A DNA stretch of 13,076 bases from a candidate division Zixibacteria bacterium SM23_81. GTDB taxonomy: Bacteria > SM23-81. The stretch is taken from positions 1 to 13,076 of the forward strand of contig LJUY01000066.1 of assembly GCA_001304015.1 (NCBI GenBank), written 5' to 3'. This document shows, one piece after another, positions 834 through 13,076 of the stretch. Numbering within the stretch: the first letter of the stretch is position 1; each line of letters begins with the position of its first letter. The notes beneath the pieces were generated by a model. The model did no database searches and was not told the origin of the DNA. It saw only the letters and a list, made by a program, of their open reading frames with translations. Made by a program: the position numbers and the translations under genes.

Positions 834-2384
834 ATGAGCGGACAGGATAAGGTGAAACAACTGAGGGAGCTCAAAGAACGGGCCAAGTTGGGAGGCGGCA
901 AAGAGAGAATAGAGGTTCAACACAAAAAGGGAAAATTGACTGCCCGGGAGAGGCTGGACCTTCTCCTGGATGAGGGCAGCTTTCAGGAGATCGACGCCTT
1001 CGTCACGCATCGCTCCACCGAGTTTGGGCTGGCCGAAAAGAAATTTATGGGCGATGGGGTGGTCACCGGTTCCGGCACCATCGATGGGCGACTGATCTAT
1101 GTCTTCTCCCAGGATTTCACCGTGTTCGGCGGCTCCCTTTCCGAGGGTCATGCCGGGAAGATCTGCAAGGTCATGGACCTGGCCATGAAGATGGGCGCTC
1201 CCGTCATCGGCCTGAACGATTCTGGAGGGGCCAGAATTCAGGAGGGCGTGATCAGCTTAGGAGCCTATGCCGAGATATTCTTGCGCAACACCTTGGCCTC
1301 GGGTGTGGTGCCGCAGATATCGGCGATTATGGGGCCCTGTGCCGGAGGTGCTGTTTACTCTCCGGCCATCACCGATTTTATCTTCATGGTGAAAAACACC
1401 AGCTATATGTTCGTCACCGGTCCCAATGTGGTCAGGGCCGTTACCCACGAGAAGGTGAGTTTCGAGGATTTGGGCGGCGCTGTCACTCACAGCACCGCAA
1501 GCGGCGTGGCCCACTTCGCTGCTGAAAACGAGGTGGAGTGTCTGGCTAAAATTCGGGAGCTGATTAGCTACATTCCCCAGAACAATATGGAAGATCCACC
1601 TCAAATTTCCCCAACGGACTCACCTGACCGACAGGACAAAGTCTTGGACCGCATCATTCCAGACAGCCCCACGAAACCCTATGACATGAAAGACGTCATA
1701 GGGCACTTGGTGGATGAGGGCAAGTTCCTGGAGGTTCACGAGGACTACGCCAAGAACCTGGTGGTTGGCTTTGCCAGGTTGGACGGCAGAACGGTGGGCA
1801 TTTTGGGAAATCAGCCGGCGGCATTGGCGGGCGTTTTGGATATCGATTCATCACTGAAGGGAGCCCGCTTCGTCAGATTCTGTGACTGTTTCAACATTCC
1901 CCTGCTCACCTTTGTGGACGTGCCGGGGTTTTTACCGGGCACTGCTCAGGAAAGCGGGGGAATTATCAAACACGGAGCCAAGCTCCTCTATGCATACTGT
2001 GAGGCCACCGTGCCCAAAGTCACCGTGATCACCCGCAAAGCCTATGGTGGGGCTTACGATGTGCTTAGCAGCAAGCATATCCGTGGGGATGTCAATCTGG
2101 CCTGGCCTACTGCGGAGATCGCGGTTATGGGACCAGAGGGAGCAGCGGAGATCATCTTCAAGAAAGAGATTTCTGCCTCGAAAAGCCCCCGGGCCACCCT
2201 CAGGCGGAAGGTGAAAGAGTTCCGAGAGCGATTCGCCAACCCCTATATCGCAGCCGAGCTGGGATTTATCGATGATGTTCTCGAACCCCACCAAACGCGC
2301 CCTACACTCATCAGAGCTTTCCGCATGCTGGCCACTAAGGTGGATGCCAACCCAAAGAAGAAGCACGGTAATATCCCCCTGTAA
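834..2384 (+). CDS. Propionyl-CoA carboxylase carboxyltransferase (beta) subunit
   Basis: A 516-residue carboxyltransferase of the PccB/MmdA family, normal length, matching from end to end. It moves the carboxyl group from biotin on the carrier protein to the alpha carbon of an acyl-CoA in the cytoplasm. Seen: N-terminal half with [34 protein letters not shown] and an oxyanion-hole region [14 protein letters not shown]-terminal half with [13 protein letters not shown] and a second glycine-rich site [15 protein letters not shown]. The aspartate in GGAYD (D409) sits at the position that in Streptomyces PccB favours propionyl-CoA; acetyl-CoA-type enzymes have isoleucine. Propionyl-CoA is therefore the likely substrate (inference). 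MmdA of sodium-pump methylmalonyl-CoA decarboxylases is similar, but the biotin carboxylase 18 bp downstream argues for ATP-driven carboxylation. It is the first gene of a four-gene operon. Confidence 0.93.
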
Positions 2385-2402: not shown

Positions 2403-3920
2403 ATGTTGCGAAAAGTTCTCATCGCCAACCGGGGCGAGATTGCCCTGCGGGTCATGCGCGCTTGCCGTGAGATGGGTATTACCACGGCCACTGTGTACTC
2501 CGAGATAGATCGCCATGCTCTGCACGTAAGATTAGCCGATGAGGCATACTGCATCGGACCGCCTCCTGCCGGGGAGAGCTATCTCAAGCAGGAGGCCATC
2601 ATCGAGGTGGCCAAGGCATGCGGAGCAGAGGCCATTCATCCGGGCTATGGCTTCTTGGCGGAAAACGCAGACTTCGTTGAGGCCATTGAGGCGGCGGGCC
2701 TGGTCTTTATCGGGCCCTCTGCCCAGACCATGCGGCTAGTGGGAGATAAGACCGCCGCTCGACGGACCGTCAAAACGGCAGGCGTGCCTGTTGTGCCCGG
2801 TGGAGACCATGAGTTGAAGGGTGTCGCTGAGGCTTTGAAGCTCACCGAAAAAATGGGCTTTCCCGTCCTGATCAAAGCCGCTGCGGGTGGAGGGGGGAAG
2901 GGGATGCACATCGTGAATTCCCGGACTGAGCTCTCTTCGGCCATGAAAACCTCCCGCTCTGAGTCGCGCTCCTCTTTCGGTGATCCAACCATCTACATCG
3001 AGAAATACCTGTCGGGAGCAAGGCACATCGAGTTCCAGGTGTTGGGCGATACATATGGCAATCTGGTTCATCTGGGCGAGCGGGAATGCTCCGTTCAACG
3101 CCGTTATCAGAAATTGGTGGAGGAGTCACCCAGCTGTGCCCTGGATCCAGGCCTTAGAGAGCAGATGGGCCGAGCGGCACTGCAGGTGGCTGCGTCAGCG
3201 GGCTATACCAATGCGGGAACGGTGGAGTTTCTCCTAGACGAGGATGGTCAGTTCTATTTTCTAGAAGTAAACGCTCGCCTCCAGGTGGAGCATCCCGTCA
3301 CCGAGATGGTCACCGGAATCGACCTGGTCAAGGAGCAGATTCGAGTGGCAGCAGGGGAGAAACTGTCATTTGTCCAGGAGGACGTTGAGTCGCGCGGATG
3401 GGCGCTGGAATGTCGTATCTATGCTGAGGACCCGGAAAATGACTTCTTCCCCTCCACGGGGAAAATCGGTCATCTTCAGCTGCCCAATGGTCCTTGGGTT
3501 AGGAATGACAGCAGTCTCTATACAGGCATGGAGGTTTCCGTATACTATGATCCTCTGTTGTCCAAGTTGATGGTTTGGGGAAAAGATAGGCAAGAAGCTT
3601 TGGACCGGATGCTCTGGGCTCTTGGGGAGTATCATATAGCCGGGATTAAGACAACCATCGGCTTCTGCAGGCAGGTGCTGGTGGATCCCAAGTTCGTGGC
3701 CGGTACATACGACACGCGTATCATCCCGGAGCTGACCAATCGGGCGCGAGAGCATGTGAAGGGCCATGAGGAAATTGCCGCTCTGGCCGCTGCCCTGGTG
3801 GCCTTCTGGGGGGAGAAGGGTACTACGTTTGAATTCCTCTCGGCGAGAGGCCAGCAGGAAGACCCTTGGAAGATGGCCGGGCGAAGAAGAGGCATGGCCG
3901 GAGGTCCTTGGGAGAGATGA
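2403..3920 (+). CDS. Biotin carboxylase subunit of acyl-CoA carboxylase
   Basis: A 505-residue biotin carboxylase (AccC/PccA type) that uses ATP and bicarbonate to carboxylate biotin on the carrier protein. Seen: the N-terminal domain opens with MLRKVLIANRGEIALR; the ATP-grasp glycine loop GGGGKGMH is at about 162-169; RHIEFQVLGD is at about 207-216; the catalytic and metal-binding stretch FLEVNARLQVEHPVTE is at about 286-301; the C-terminal lobe begins around 330. It is about 50 residues longer than E. coli AccC; the C-terminal end is arginine-rich and looks unconserved. It has no biotinyl domain, which is a separate gene just downstream. GGAG at 2391-2394 lies 8 bases before the ATG. Its TGA lies right at the start region of the carrier gene, which suggests translational coupling. 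Confidence 0.95.
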   Translation: MLRKVLIANRGEIALRVMRACREMGITTATVYSEIDRHALHVRLADEAYCIGPPPAGESYLKQEAIIEVAKACGAEAIHPGYGFLAENADFVEAIEAAGLVFIGPSAQTMRLVGDKTAARRTVKTAGVPVVPGGDHELKGVAEALKLTEKMGFPVLIKAAAGGGGKGMHIVNSRTELSSAMKTSRSESRSSFGDPTIYIEKYLSGARHIEFQVLGDTYGNLVHLGERECSVQRRYQKLVEESPSCALDPGLREQMGRAALQVAASAGYTNAGTVEFLLDEDGQFYFLEVNARLQVEHPVTEMVTGIDLVKEQIRVAAGEKLSFVQEDVESRGWALECRIYAEDPENDFFPSTGKIGHLQLPNGPWVRNDSSLYTGMEVSVYYDPLLSKLMVWGKDRQEALDRMLWALGEYHIAGIKTTIGFCRQVLVDPKFVAGTYDTRIIPELTNRAREHVKGHEEIAALAAALVAFWGEKGTTFEFLSARGQQEDPWKMAGRRRGMAGGPWER

Positions 3921-3922
3921 CC

Positions 3923-4429
3923 ATGGAGTACACCCTGTCTGCTGGAAATCGTAAAATGGGGCTTTCTATTCGGGAAATCCCTGGAGGCGTGGAAGTTGTT
4001 CTCGATGGCCGAGCGGTGGCCGTGGACATGGTCCGCATCGGCAGCAGTCAGTGCTACTCCCTTCTTGTCAACGGCCGTTCCTACGAGGTTCAGGTGCAGG
4101 GGGATGGGGAGAATTACGAGGTGGTCTTGGGTCAGCGTCGATATGGGGTGACCGTGGAGAGCGATCGAGCTCGAATGCTGAAGAGCCTGATCTCCTCCGA
4201 GCAGAAACAAGAGCAGGCCCAGGAGATCAAGGCGGCCATGCCGGGATTAGTCGTCAAGGTGGAGGTGAAAGAGGGGGATCGGGTTCGCTCCGGGGGTGGC
4301 TTGGTCGTCGTGGAGGCCATGAAGATGGAAAACGAGCTTCGGGCCCCACGACAGGGAGTGGTCAAACAGGTTTTTGTGAAGAGAGGGATGACGGTGGACC
4401 AAGGACAAACTCTGCTGGTCATCGAGTAG
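3923..4429 (+). CDS. Biotin carboxyl carrier protein of acyl-CoA carboxylase
   Basis: A 168-residue biotin carrier that shuttles carboxyl groups between the biotin carboxylase and the carboxyltransferase. The last about 70 residues are a biotinyl domain: AAMPGLVVKVEVKEGDRV, then VVVEAMKMENELRAP with the biotin-accepting lysine in EAMKMEN (about K134), then QGQTLLVIE at the end. The first about 95 residues form a beta-rich region typical of carriers in three-part acyl-CoA carboxylases. Start choice: ATG 3923 has GGAG (3911-3914) 8 bases upstream. ATG 3917, two codons earlier, overlaps the upstream stop (ATGA) but leaves only 2 bases to the same GGAG. A start at 3866 would overlap the biotin carboxylase by 55 bases and adds a charged, unconserved extension. 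Confidence 0.92.
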   Translation: MEYTLSAGNRKMGLSIREIPGGVEVVLDGRAVAVDMVRIGSSQCYSLLVNGRSYEVQVQGDGENYEVVLGQRRYGVTVESDRARMLKSLISSEQKQEQAQEIKAAMPGLVVKVEVKEGDRVRSGGGLVVVEAMKMENELRAPRQGVVKQVFVKRGMTVDQGQTLLVIE

Positions 4430-4444
4430 GAACGAGGGATATTC

Positions 4445-6058
4445 ATGGGCCAAAAGAAGGAGGGTAAGAAATCTGTCAGGGGAGAGCGACGAGAGCGTCT
4501 TTATACCAGCTCGGGCATTCCCGTTGATCTGGTCTATACAGAGGGGCCGCCTCATGGTCTAGGCGCTGCCGGGGACTATCCATTCACCCGGGGTGTTTAC
4601 GAGACCATGTACCGGGGGCGGCTCTGGACCATGCGCCAGTATTCGGGGTATGCTACGGCCCAGGAAACCAATAGCCGTTTTCAGTACCTCCTGCGGCAGG
4701 GCCAAACAGGGTTGAGCGTGGCCTTCGACTTGCCCACGCAAATCGGCTACGACTCCGATCATCCTCTGGCAGACGGGGAGGTGGGCCGCACAGGAGTGGC
4801 CATCGACTCACTGGCAGATATGGAGGTCCTGTTCGCCAATATCCCCCTGGATCAGGTGAGCACCTCCATGACCATCAACGCCACTGCCGCCATTTTGTTG
4901 GCCATGTACCTGGTCTGCGCTCAAAAGCGGGGTCTTTCGCTGGATAGCCTCTCTGGCACCATTCAGAACGACATCCTCAAGGAGTATTATGCTCGGGGCA
5001 CCTATATCTTTCCGCCAGGCCCCTCCCTGAAGCTCATCACAGATATTTTTACCTTCTGCCATGAGCATATGCCTCGGTGGAATACCATCAGCATCAGCGG
5101 CTACCACATCCGCGAGGCCGGCTCCACCGCGGTTCAGGAGGTGGCTTTCACCCTGGCCGATGCCATTGCCTATGTCCAGGCAGCCATCGATGCCGGGCTA
5201 GAGGTGGACGAGTTTGCCCCACGCCTGTCGTTTTTTTTCAACGCTCACAATGAGATTCTCGAGGAGGTGGCCAAGTTCCGAGCAGCCAGGAGGGTTTGGG
5301 CCAAGATTATGAAAGAGCGCTTCAGCGCCCAAGATCCAGCATCTATGCGTCTTCGCTTCCACACCCAAACAGCGGGCTCGACCCTCACTGCTCAACAGCC
5401 GGAGAACAACATCGTGCGGGTGACTCTGCAGGCCTTGGCCGCCGTCCTGGGTGGCACACAATCCCTGCACACCAACTCTTACGATGAAGCTCTCTGTTTG
5501 CCCACGGAGAAATCCGTTCAACTCGCTCTGAGAACCCAGCAGATTATCGCTGAGGAGAGCGGTGTGGCCATAACTGTCGATCCCTTGGGAGGTTCTTACT
5601 ATCTGGAGTATCTCACCGATGAGATCCAGAGGCGCGTGGAGGAGTATATCGAGAAGATCGATGAGATGGGAGGAGCTATCAAAGCTGTGGAGTTGGGGTA
5701 TTTCCAGAAGGAAATTCAGGAGAGCTCTTACCGCTATCAGCGGCAGATCGAAGAGCAGGACCAAGTCGTGGTGGGAATTAACAAGTACATGTCCTCAAAG
5801 GAGGAGGAATCGGAAAATCTCCTCAAGGTCGATCCGGAGGTGCAGAAACAGCAGCTCCTTTTTTTGAACAAGATCAAGAGGGAACGGGATCAGGGGGCTG
5901 TTGAAGCTATGTTGAAGAAACTGCACCATGCCGCCTCAGGTGAAGAGAATCTGATGCCAGCTATTCTGGAATGCGTTCAGAGCTATGCTACTGTCGGCGA
6001 GATGTGCGATGTGTTGAGATCCGTGTTTGGGGAATATAAGGATGAGGTGGTGATGTGA
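4445..6058 (+). CDS. Methylmalonyl-CoA mutase catalytic (large) subunit, no B12 domain
   Basis: A 537-residue catalytic subunit of methylmalonyl-CoA mutase, which interconverts (R)-methylmalonyl-CoA and succinyl-CoA by an adenosylcobalamin radical mechanism. It holds the TIM-barrel domain only. The DxHxxG cobalamin-binding domain, fused in single-chain mutases, is absent, so a separate small subunit must exist elsewhere; this split form is known in archaea and many bacteria. Specificity residues are visible: Y66 in RQYSGYAT, R184 in ARGTYIFPP and H221 in [10 protein letters not shown]. Their spacing (118 and 37 residues) equals that of Tyr89, Arg207 and His244 in the Propionibacterium enzyme. 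Isobutyryl- and hydroxyisobutyryl-CoA mutases have other residues at the Tyr and Arg positions, so methylmalonyl-CoA is well supported. The start lies 15 bp after the carrier gene, with GAGGG at 4434-4438. The stop codon lies inside a dispersed repeat. Confidence 0.95.
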
Positions 6059-6136
6059 ATCGTGGATCGTGAATCGTGAAAACCGAGACCAAGCCCCGGG
6101 ATCCGTGAAAATCCGAGACTCGAGATTCGAGACTCG
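6055..6136 (+). repeat. Heptad repeat tract overlapping the mutase stop codon
   Basis: Units include gaatcgt, ggatcgt, gaatcgt (6058-6078) and gagattc, gagactc (6122-6135), again with 7-bp phase. Bases 6055-6072 are an exact reverse complement of 701-718. CCCGGGATCCG (6095-6105) is repeated as its reverse complement at 10322-10332. Bases 6121-6136 are identical to 7593-7608. Confidence 0.75.
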
Positions 6137-7655: not shown

Positions 7656-8030
7656 ATGTCACCTAAAGGTTATAGAAAACTGGATGCATGGCGAAAAGGA
7701 ATTGAAATCGTCGAGATGATTTACAAGATCTCTAAGAAATTACCAAAAGAAGAAAGATTTGGCTTGGCAGCACAAATGCAAAGAGCAGCCCTTTCGATTC
7801 CAAGCAACATCGCAGAAGGATACTCTCGAGGATATCGGAAGGAATTTCAACGGTTCTGTCAAATCGCCCTGGGCTCTTGTTCTGAATTAGAAACGCAAAT
7901 GATCGTAGCCAAACGGCAGAAGTATTTGTCGAAGGAAGAGTTCGCCAAAATAGAAGACAACCTAGACCATGAAAGTCGCATGCTAATGAAGCTGATAAAA
8001 AGCTTACGTCAAAAAGAGCAAAGCACATGA
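7656..8030 (+). CDS. Four-helix-bundle protein (S23/IVP family)
   Basis: A 124-residue protein of the four-helix-bundle family first found as ORFs inside intervening sequences of 23S rRNA and now known from many genomic contexts. Seen: the N-terminal YRKLDAWRKGIEIVEMIYK helix, the family signature AALSIPSNIAEGYSRG at about 45-59, and a mostly helical, lysine- and glutamate-rich remainder; the length is normal. Members form pentamers; a molecular function is not established. It is not within rRNA here. Codons are richer in A and T than in the neighbours (many AAA, GAA, ATT) and the gene sits between inverted heptad arrays, which suggests separate acquisition. The ribosome binding site is weak (AAGG only 4 bases before ATG 7656). 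Confidence 0.88.
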   Translation: MSPKGYRKLDAWRKGIEIVEMIYKISKKLPKEERFGLAAQMQRAALSIPSNIAEGYSRGYRKEFQRFCQIALGSCSELETQMIVAKRQKYLSKEEFAKIEDNLDHESRMLMKLIKSLRQKEQST

Positions 8031-9685: not shown

Positions 9686-10090
9686 GTGCTGAAAAAATTG
9701 GAACACGTGGGCATCGCCGTTGAGGATTTGGATCAAGCCTTGGAGGTCTATCAGGAGACCCTAGGTCTTGCGCCCGATGAGGTTCTGGAGGTTCCAGAGC
9801 GTGGCATCAAGATCGCCTTTTTCACCTTGGGCCAGGTGCAGTTGGAGCTTTTGGCCAGCACTCGAGAGGGGAGCGATATCGGCAATTTCTTGCAGAAACG
9901 CGGCCCGGGACTGCACCACCTGGCTTTTCTGGTTGACGATGTGGCCGCGGCCTTGGGTCGTTTGAAGGAAAAAGGTATCCGGTTGATAGACGAGACTCCC
10001 AAGAGAGGGGGACGCGGCAATAGGATCGCCTTTGTCCACCCCAAGAGCATCGGCGGAGTGTTGGTGGAGTTGTGTGAGAAACATGGGTAA
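9686..10090 (+). CDS. mce: Methylmalonyl-CoA epimerase
   Basis: A 134-residue protein of the vicinal-oxygen-chelate fold that interconverts (S)- and (R)-methylmalonyl-CoA, linking the carboxylase product to the mutase substrate. Seen: two beta-alpha-beta repeats; metal ligands expected at H7 (LEHVGIAV), E54 (QLELL), a histidine of GLHHLAFLVDD (77/78) and E128 (GGVLVELCEKHG). The string RLIDETPKRGG and the ending AFVHPKSIGGVLVELCE are characteristic of the epimerase rather than of other VOC proteins. The start is GTG 9686 with GGGAG (9674-9678) 7 bases upstream; the first bases of that site overlap the stop of the oxidoreductase gene. Its presence strengthens the reading of the locus as the methylmalonyl-CoA pathway, even though four unrelated genes separate it from the mutase. 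Confidence 0.92.
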   Translation: MLKKLEHVGIAVEDLDQALEVYQETLGLAPDEVLEVPERGIKIAFFTLGQVQLELLASTREGSDIGNFLQKRGPGLHHLAFLVDDVAAALGRLKEKGIRLIDETPKRGGRGNRIAFVHPKSIGGVLVELCEKHG

Positions 10091-10162: not shown

Positions 10163-10232
10163 TTAACGAATCACGATCAACGAATATCGATTCACGTAAC
10201 GAGCTTCGATACCGATAAACGAGTTTCGAAGC
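10163..10232 (+). repeat. Heptad tract containing the right copy of the 41-bp repeat
   Basis: Ten 7-bp units, many ending in CGA (ttaacga, atcacga, tcaacga, atatcga and onward). Bases 10190-10230 match the reverse complement of 613-653 with 3 mismatches. The unit at 10183-10189 is absent from the left copy. Confidence 0.85.
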
Positions 10233-10246
10233 AGGTACTAAACGAG

Positions 10247-10295
10247 ATTCCTGCTCCCCGCTCCCCGCATTCGCGGGGACAAGATTCGCAGGAAT
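10247..10295. repeat. Nested hairpin element (REP/dRS3-like)
   Basis: ATTCCTGC (10247-10254) pairs perfectly with GCAGGAAT (10288-10295). Inside it TCCCCGC (10262-10268) pairs with GCGGGGA (10273-10279) around an ATTC loop. ATTCC...GGAAT ends recall dRS3-type and other REP-like palindromes. There is no T-run after it, so it is not a canonical intrinsic terminator, although it could still stabilise the 3' end of the upstream transcript. Confidence 0.7.
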
Positions 10296-10347
10296 GACAT
10301 ATTAAGAATGAAGATTCCCGGATTCCGATTCGCGGATCCCGGGTTTC

Positions 10348-10356
10348 TAAGGAGGT
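10348..10356 (+). promoter_or_regulatory. Full-consensus Shine-Dalgarno of the synthetase gene
   Basis: TAAGGAGGT is complementary over nine bases to the usual 16S rRNA 3' end and lies just before ATG 10360. It is the strongest ribosome binding site in the window and fixes the start of the fused synthetase. Confidence 0.85.
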
Positions 10357-10359
10357 AGC

Positions 10360-13076
10360 ATGCGTGAGGTTCAACCTAACATGATCGACTATAAAAAGAC
10401 CCGTAAGGAGTTCAAACTAGAGGTGCCCGAGTATTTCAATTTCGGGTTCGACGTTGTGGATGAATGGGCCGAGGACAGGACCAAGCTGGCTCTGGTGATC
10501 GTGGATCAAATGGGCGAAAGAACGGACCGGTACACGTTCTGGGACATGAAGAACCTCTCTAACAAATTCGCCAATGTCCTCAAGAGATGTGGACTGAAGA
10601 AGGGAGACTGCGTCTTTCTGATGTTGGGCCGCGTGCCCGAATGGTATATCAGCCTGGTGGCCATGTTCAAGTTGGGAGTGGTGGCCATGCCGGCTACCGT
10701 TCTCTGCACCATGCGGGACATCGAGTACCGCATCAATCGGTCTGGAGCTGTGATGGTCATCACCGATGAAGAGGGAGTGGCTAAGGTGGAGGCAGTGCGG
10801 GAGCGTTGTCCCACCCTCAAGACCACGATCTTGGTTGGAGGCCGGCGAAAGGACTGGTTGGACTTTTGGGAGCGCATCGATGGAGCCCCGGCTCGGCTGG
10901 AGAAGGTGCCCAGGACCAAGAGTGACGATACCCTTCTTTTGTATTTCACCTCGGGTACCGTGTCCTATCCCAAAATGGTCCTGCACACCCAGGCCTCGTA
11001 CGCCATCGGCCATATCATTACCGCCAAGTTCTGGCAGGACCTGAAGCCCACTGATCTGCATTGGACCCTGACAGACACCGGCTGGGCCAAGGCCGCCTGG
11101 GGGAGTTTGTTCGGTCAATGGACCCTAGGAGCCACAGTCTTCCATCACAACGCCAGGGGCAAATTCGACGCCGCCAAGACTCTTAGGATTCTTGAGCGCT
11201 ATGGCATCACCACATTCTGTGCCCCACCCACGGGTTACCGGATGATGATTTTGGAGGACCTGAAGAAATATGATCTCAGTAACCTTCGTCACTGTATGAG
11301 CGCCGGGGAGCCCCTGAACCCCGAAGTGATGAAGGTATGGGAGGAGGGCACGGGCTTGAAGATTTACGATGGGTATGGACAGACGGAGACAGTCAACTTG
11401 GTGGCCAACTTCCGTAGCATGCCCATTCGGCCGGGCTCCATGGGCAAGCCAACCCCTGGCTTCGACGTTCAGATCGTCGATGATGATGGCAACATGCTGG
11501 GCCCGAACGAGGAGGGATATATCGCCGTTCGAGTGAAGCCAGAGCGGCCCGTGGGTCTCTTCAAGGAATACTGGAAAGACCCCGAGGAGATGTCACGGGT
11601 TTTCTCCGGCGACTGGTATTTTACAGGGGATAAGTCTTATAAGGACGATGACGGCTATTTCTGGTTCGTGGGCCGCGCCGATGACGTGATCATCTCCTCA
11701 GGGTACCGCATCGGGCCCTTTGAGGTGGAGAGTGCCTTGGTGGAGCACCCAGCCGTGGCTGAATCGGCCGTGGTAGCCAGTCCCGATTCCGTCAGGGGAG
11801 AGATTGTCAAGGCCTTTGTGGTTCTGAAACCGGGGTATTCTCCCTCCGAGGAGCTGACCACTCAAATTCAACAGCATGTGCGAGAGGTGACGGCCCCGTA
11901 TAAATATCCACGGGTCATCGAGTACGTCACCGATCTGCCCAAGACCATCAGCGGGAAGATCCGCCGGGGCCAGCTGAAGAAGAAAGAGTGGGCCAAGGAG
12001 CTGAAGAGAAGGCCCAGTTACGCATACATGGGCTCGGAGGCAAAACTGGTCGGGTCCACCATCGGAGAAACTCTGCGGGATATCGTCGAGCGATATCCGG
12101 ACAACGAGGCGCTGGTGGTTCCCTTTCGGGACGTGTGCCTGACCTACCGCCAATTTCTGGGTGTCTGCAGCCAGGCGGCCAAGAGCTTCCTGAAGTTGGG
12201 CGTTCAGAAGGGCGATCGGGTGGCCATCTGGGCCACCAATCACCCGGAGTGGGTCATCACCCAGTTCGCCTCTTCTATGATCGGAGCCATCTTGGTGACC
12301 GTAAATCCGGCTTACCGAAGCCACGAGCTGGAGTACGGCTTGAAGGATTCCGAAACCCAAACCCTGGTGCTCATCGAGAAGTTCAAGACTTCCGATTACA
12401 TCTCCATGCTCTATGAAGTCTGTCCAGAGGCCAAGAAGGCCAAGCCCGGTCAAATCAAATCTAAAAAACTGCCCTTTCTGAAGAACGTCATCCTCCTTGG
12501 CAAGAAAGTTCATCCTGGGATGTGGACCTGGGATCAGTTCCTGAAGCTAGGAGAATCGACCTCTGATGAAGAGCTGGCCAAGAGAGAACACGCTCTGGAT
12601 GCTGACGAGGTCATCAACATCCAGTATACTTCCGGGACCACGGGAATGCCCAAGGGGGCCTCTCTGACCCACCATAACATCCTCAACAACGCCTTTTTCG
12701 TGGGGGAGGCCATGAAGTTTTCTCCCCAGGATCGGCTGTGTATACCCGTTCCTTTTTACCACTGCTTCGGAATGGTATTGGCCAACCTGGCCTGCGTGAC
12801 CCACGGATCGGCCATGGTGCTTCCCGACGAGTATTTCGATCCTCTGGCTACCCTCAAAACGGTGGAAAAGGAGAAGTGCACCGCCATTCACGGCGTGCCC
12901 ACCATGTTCATCGCCGAGCTGGAGCATCCCGATTTCGCCAAGTTCGACCTGAGCACCTTGCGGACGGGCATCATGGCGGGCTCACCGTGCCCCATTGAAG
13001 TGATGAAAAAGGTGGTCGACTTGATGCATGCCAAGGAGATGACCATAGCGTATGGGCAAACTGAGACCTCCCCGGT
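10360..13076 (+). CDS. Tandem (double) acyl-CoA synthetase, 3' partial
   Basis: One reading frame, free of stops for 905 codons, runs off the window end and holds two adenylate-forming modules. Module 1 (residues about 1-545) resembles medium-chain acyl-CoA synthetases: [15 protein letters not shown] (192-206), GYGQTET (338-344), [20 protein letters not shown], and the catalytic lysine in [15 protein letters not shown] (K533). Module 2 (from about 550) resembles FadD-like short/medium-chain synthetases: [12 protein letters not shown] (756-767) and [10 protein letters not shown] (896-905), where the window ends. The linker is only a few residues (around [11 protein letters not shown]). Sequence resembling the usual N-terminus of a standalone module-2 enzyme begins before the first ATG there (12028), and no good ribosome binding site precedes it, so separate translation is unlikely. 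Each module would form an acyl-CoA from acid, ATP and CoA; propionate is a reasonable substrate from context, but unproven. The expected total is about 1,100 residues. Confidence 0.88.

Follow-up and report, generated by a model that had tools for sequence, protein, structure and literature searches.

A head-to-tail fusion of two predicted acyl-CoA synthetases beside propionyl-CoA genes in a candidate Zixibacteria bacterium

Gene fusion is usually a sign of proteins that work together, and acyl-CoA synthetases of the kind described here are normally regarded as independent enzymes. NRPS proteins carry several adenylation domains, but together with condensation and carrier domains. The eukaryotic protein DIP2 comes closer in layout, with tandem FAAL-like ANL domains on one chain that arose by domain duplication and of which FLD2 is degenerate in its A5 and A7 motifs (PMC9342972). 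Most members of the DIP2 group combine the FAAL-like domains with a DMAP1-binding domain. Among single synthetases, the MACS of Methanosarcina acetivorans (PDB 3etc) prefers 2-methylbutyrate, and its pocket residue Trp259, together with the glycine that replaces the Acs tryptophan before QTET, distinguishes medium-chain from acetyl-CoA synthetases; such enzymes rotate their C-terminal domain by ~140 degrees from one half-reaction to the other (PMC10455477). A preliminary description of the present locus, made from its sequence, stated that no characterised enzyme with two synthetases on one chain was known. This was too strong in view of DIP2 and of the Mycobacteriales fusion described below, although a search of the open-access literature found no account of a prokaryotic protein consisting of two acyl-CoA synthetases.

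The window analyzed here is a stretch of 13,076 nucleotides from candidate division Zixibacteria bacterium SM23_81 (assembly GCA_001304015.1, contig LJUY01000066.1; genome G000), whose draft genome comprises 3.07 Mb in 99 contigs. Read codon by codon, frame 1 has no stop between the ATG at 10360 and the window end, as first reported, and comprises 905 codons. The frame ends at the window edge because the window is the whole contig (C4) and the assembly stops there. Pfam models placed two AMP-binding domains in the frame and one AMP-binding_C domain between them (residues 455–533). The two sets of adenylation motifs, the two GQTET motifs, the complete first C-terminal domain, and the catalytic K533 were all recovered at the positions originally reported for them. 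The clean join also held, with module 2 starting shortly after KKKEW, 19 residues past the A10 lysine of module 1, and the junction running from K533 to YAYMGSE at residue 553. The features of the window are collected in Table 1.

Table 1. Coordinates of the fused gene, its modules and motifs, and the neighboring genes in the window.
Feature	Position	Strand	Evidence
Carboxyltransferase subunit (mmdA/propionyl-CoA carboxylase type)	834..2384	+	TIGR01117, 828 bits (cutoff 999)
Biotin carboxylase	2403..3920	+	Annotated context gene
Biotin carboxyl carrier protein	3866..4429	+	Annotated context gene
Methylmalonyl-CoA mutase large-subunit domain	4445..6058	+	TIGR00641 above cutoff
Methylmalonyl-CoA epimerase, directly upstream of the fusion	9686..10090	+	TIGR03081 above cutoff
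Shine-Dalgarno AAGGAGG before the fused gene	10349..10355	+	Sequence; the frame showed no other strong ribosome-binding site
Fused ORF encoding both acyl-CoA synthetase modules, truncated at the 3′ side by the contig end	10360..13076	+	Open frame; Pfam; sister copy (L032, 2-2824) that includes the whole C-terminus
Module 1, complete acyl-CoA synthetase of the MACS/MbcS type, with N domain and AMP-binding_C	10360..11994	+	Pfam; NCBIfam MbcS best match; PDB 3etc best match
Module 1 A3 P-loop, residues 197-206	10948..10977	+	Motif reading; TV variant common to split orthologues
Module 1 A5 motif GYGQTET	11371..11391	+	Motif reading
Module 1 catalytic A10 lysine K533	11956..11958	+	Motif reading
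Tail of module 1 and linker, 19 residues	11959..12015	+	Position of the stop and spacer in split relatives
Module 2, fatty acid CoA ligase of the PRK12583 type, truncated to its N domain by the contig end	12016..13076	+	Partial NCBIfam match; full module in L032
Module 2 A3 P-loop, residues 757-766	12628..12657	+	Motif reading
Module 2 A5 motif YGQTET	13051..13068	+	Motif reading

Judged by sequence, each half belongs to, or lies near, a known family. Module 1 has the composition of an ANL acyl-CoA synthetase, with AMP-binding and AMP-binding_C domains and the motifs A3, A5, A7, A8, and A10. Its best NCBIfam match was the MbcS equivalog (NF047394) at 534 bits against a cutoff of 850, and no specific NCBIfam cutoff was reached by this module in the model search. 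Consequently, it is named MACS/MbcS-like here and not filed as MbcS. The nearest solved structure was 3etc (541 bits), with which module 1 aligns from end to end; W225 takes the position of the pocket tryptophan (Trp259 in the M. acetivorans enzyme), G340 that of the glycine replacing the Acs tryptophan, and the A10 motif is shared. Enzymes of the 3etc and MbcS type stand alone, whereas module 1 is half of a fused chain and scores below the MbcS cutoff. Module 2 matches NF009233 (PRK12583), a family whose members are usually separate proteins of ~560 aa. The copy in the window is partial, and the complete module of the sister genome described below (L032) scored 851.6 against the cutoff of 832. 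All five motifs are intact in both modules, the sister genome supplying A7, A8, and A10 for module 2.

The resemblance to DIP2 is limited to the two tandem ANL domains on one chain (PMC9342972). Pfam showed only AMP-binding and AMP-binding_C domains in the fusion, and both modules are closest to CoA ligases, whereas DIP2 is FAAL-like, arose by duplication, has degenerate FLD2 motifs, and serves diacylglycerol homeostasis; its origin is unrelated to that of the fusion. Pfam scans of the window frame and of the sister copy in G001 (see below) showed no condensation or carrier (PCP) domains of the NRPS kind.

A second fused copy was found in Candidatus Zixiibacteriota CSMAG_1598 (genome G001, contig DAOVRJ010000172.1), a metagenome-assembled genome of another genus, with 88% amino acid identity over residues 176–905. 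Across the junction and on both sides of it, 731 codons aligned with zero indels and zero stops, and the junction sequence itself is nearly identical. Divergence between the two copies is mostly synonymous, with a dN/dS of ~0.08 overall, 0.07 in module 1, 0.12 in the linker (residues 534–575), and 0.08 in module 2. Beyond the point where the source contig ends, the sister copy continues into a second AMP-binding_C domain, a second A10 motif (FPMTVTGKIQK), and a stop codon. The true stop and the second A10 lysine, which the preliminary description had proposed to look for, were thus found in the sister copy and not in the source genome, where a search with the sister tail returned paralogues only. 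The full length of ~1,114 aa is a composite: both genomes are fragmented drafts, the source copy lacks the 3′ end, the sister contig begins inside the gene and lacks the 5′ end, and no single contig spans it. The phylum sample consisted of four genomes in two families. Both genomes of the fusion's own family (2/2, in two genera) carry it, and both genomes of the other family gave no AMP-binding match at all. Both modules are present in one frame, with no stop, in more than one genome, and by this evidence two different acyl-CoA synthetases are truly fused head to tail.

The same two orthologues are adjacent but separate in five genomes of another phylum (G098, G099, G100, G132, and G135). In Candidatus Latescibacteria 4484_7 (G098), bacterium bin44 (G099), and Candidatus Krumholzibacteriota CSMAG_831 (G100), the first and second orthologues are 68–70% and 66–72% identical to the fused modules. 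They lie on one strand in the order of the fusion but occupy different frames, a stop and a short spacer separating them; G132 and G135 also have an adjacent pair. These pairs differ from the fusion in being two genes. The separate second genes carry a leader upstream of a SYAY segment. The fusion has next to nothing between SYAY and the native module 1 terminus, KKKEWAK..., which G132 also shows. Maximum-likelihood trees of each module placed the two fused sequences together, beside those of the split pairs. Because the orthologues are separate and adjacent in another phylum, the fusion is derived. The simplest history suggested by these comparisons would be an ancestral adjacent pair followed by one fusion on the branch to the Zixibacteria family, and transfer of the pair as a unit between phyla is possible. 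The locus in G135 was at first taken for a third fusion (67% identity, a frame of 1,100 aa) and was reclassified as split, one in-frame TAA lying between the modules. Its two genes (L072, 3070–3270) share one frame, separated by the single TAA and ~20 nt up to the second start, and look like an intermediate step toward fusion.

Searches of 121 genomes of the Gordonia paraffinivorans family and of 397 genomes of the order revealed an independent prokaryotic fusion in three Mycobacteriales genomes (G295, G212, and G527). The 121-genome search gave two loci with one open frame across the junction, L097 (1,045 aa) and L098 (1,067 aa, on a 5.97 Mb contig); a domain scan of L097 found two AMP-binding and two AMP-binding_C domains. 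The third copy, from G527 in the search of the order, is 73% identical and showed one TGA, with the junction itself open. The second module of the Mycobacteriales fusion is ~50% identical to module 2 and has PRK12583 as its best match (796 bits, just below the cutoff of 832). Like the Zixibacteria protein, it forms part of a chain of two complete ANL modules with a short linker. The first module is FadD5/PRK06187-like and not MACS-type, the origin is separate, and the gene adjoins acyl-CoA dehydrogenase genes. In G610 the two halves are separate genes (72% identical each) with overlapping stop and start codons (TGATG). In Nocardia farcinica (overlap ATGA) and in G282 (TGATG), a MACS-type gene is followed directly by a PRK12583-type gene, and in G248 the gene order is reversed. 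Taken together, the fused and coupled cases indicate that PRK12583-type ligases have been coupled to another ligase repeatedly and that fusion occurred at least twice, so the arrangement is genuine and apparently recurrent. Such genes number in the tens per actinobacterial genome and are few in genomes of the other phylum, which makes adjacency alone weaker evidence in the Actinobacteria.

The genes upstream of the fusion on the same contig encode a propionyl-CoA route, in agreement with the first reading of the window: carboxylase and mutase genes are followed by the epimerase gene, which ends 270 nt before the fused gene. The mutase gene encodes the large catalytic domain only (537 aa), without a B12-binding domain, and a separate small subunit would be expected elsewhere. 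Six acyl-CoA dehydrogenase matches were found in the source genome. Single-gene relatives of module 2 adjoin acyl-CoA dehydrogenase, biotin-dependent carboxylase, and HMG-CoA lyase genes in Marinobacter (a leucine-degradation-like cluster) and acyl-CoA dehydrogenase, enoyl-CoA hydratase, and carboxylase genes in Priestia. The neighborhood is not kept in the split relatives, where DoxX/rhodanese-like genes, recognized by eye, lie beside the pair. In the sister genome, a gene for an archaeal-type HMG-CoA synthase (L032, 3050–4096; TIGR00748, 554 bits) lies directly downstream of the fusion, and no match to it was found in the source genome.

The reading we favor, and hold to be probably correct as a whole, is that a derived fusion created a bifunctional enzyme whose two working sites activate related acids for the propionyl-CoA route, with a benefit from 1:1 production. 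Loss of the stop codon, the spacer, and the N-terminal leader of the second gene joined a MACS/MbcS-type synthetase to a PRK12583-type ligase, although the exact mutational path is inferred. The single upstream ribosome-binding site would then direct synthesis of one chain of ~1,114 residues. Intact motifs and selection on both halves point to two complete adenylate- and thioester-forming sites that would work independently. From homology and neighborhood, these most likely activate different but metabolically related short- or medium-chain, probably branched, acids to CoA thioesters that would enter beta-oxidation. Acids like 2-methylbutyrate would yield acetyl-CoA and propionyl-CoA, and the latter could reach succinyl-CoA by means of the carboxylase, epimerase, and mutase from the neighboring genes. 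Rather than the passing of intermediates, the advantage of fusion would most likely be fixed 1:1 production, the last stage of a coupling that the split relatives already show. Two independent sites with different acid preferences are the most economical reading of the sequences.

It is unlikely that one module has become regulatory or catalytically weak, on the model of the degenerate FLD2 of DIP2 with its altered A5 and A7 motifs (PMC9342972). The P-loop of module 1 is slightly unusual, but its TV variant also occurs in the separately encoded orthologues and therefore gives no sign of decay after fusion, and 3etc has SGTAGFPKM at this place. Strong purifying selection acts on both modules, and the intact A3, A5, A7, A8, and A10 motifs in both speak against the inactive half that had been considered in the preliminary description.

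We consider it improbable that the chain is made or processed as two synthetases, by an internal start near 12028 or by proteolysis of the linker, which would make the fusion only formal. Module 2 had been described as having no start signal of its own; an in-frame ATG does exist at its beginning (12028; GTG in the sister genome), but no well-placed Shine-Dalgarno sequence precedes it, the nearest candidate (GAGAAGG) ending 15 nt upstream. A start at this codon would fall after, and so drop, the SYAY segment of the separate module 2 orthologues. Moreover, ribosomes on module 1 must read on into module 2 because no stop lies between them. In favor of this reading, the linker is basic, and it is the low-confidence stretch of a structure model of the module 1 C-terminal domain, linker, and module 2 of the sister protein (mean pLDDT 81), in which the two flanking parts were mostly well predicted. 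The stretch is probably a flexible, partly helical linker. The ~140-degree turn of the C-terminal domain implies that module 1 needs freedom at its C-terminus.

Similarly improbable is a direct cooperation of the two sites, by transfer of acyl-adenylates or sequential use of one pool, with a new activity arising from the fusion. The characterized relative of module 1 adenylates many acids unsuited to its second step (PMC10455477), and the same type of module has repeatedly been coupled or fused; however, simple co-expression explains this recurrence equally well, no structural evidence points to facing active sites, and the linker looks flexible. Least credible is an assembly or sequencing error that removed a stop or joined two separate genes, as the contig end in a 99-contig draft and the split adjacent genes of another phylum might suggest: the independently assembled contig of another genus contradicts it with the same indel-free join and mostly synonymous divergence, which makes such an error unreasonable, and the case that the preliminary description had named as refuting the fusion, split genes in close relatives with an assembly error here, is contradicted, the closest relative being fused and the split pair found only in a different phylum.

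Ligases of the PRK12583 type are thus neighbors of another ligase in one phylum, overlap or adjoin one in Actinobacteria, and have been fused to one on two independent occasions, which hints that they act with a partner ligase. That they form a recurrent partner module, with the two sites sharing an acid pool as separate enzymes cannot, and so define a prokaryotic didomain acyl-CoA synthetase class, is a speculative extension that we regard as unlikely. The fused and split orthologues constitute natural constructs with which acid activation by coupled and by separate enzymes could be compared. Annotators should neither split the frame into two genes nor label it NRPS.

Several other long frames were considered as fusions. 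L005 and L004 proved to be single synthetases, and Natrinema H7 has two separate genes in one frame, other than these orthologues. NRPS-like long frames on contig 9 of the source genome are ordinary condensation-adenylation-carrier modules unrelated to the fusion; L024 and L027, at about 62–67 kb of that contig, are NRPS genes that encode condensation, adenylation, and carrier regions and belong to a poorly known lineage. Relatives of module 1 (57%) were also seen in Thermoplasmatota archaea (L046, L048), grouping in the tree with G120 of the Krumholzibacteriota-type phylum, a placement that suggests a transfer between domains. Within the window, positions 7656–8030 encode a four-helix bundle protein (TIGR02436) between aminotransferase and nitroreductase genes. 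A 50-nt intergenic inverted repeat (613–662 and 10181–10230, 88% complementary, 9.5 kb apart) flanks the propionyl-CoA genes, and more TTCGAGA-rich repeats lie near 6106, 7583, and 8064. A palindrome-like element (ATTCCTGCTCCCCGC ... GCGGGGACAAGATTCGCAGGAAT), present in one copy in the window, occupies positions 10240–10300 between the epimerase gene and the fusion.
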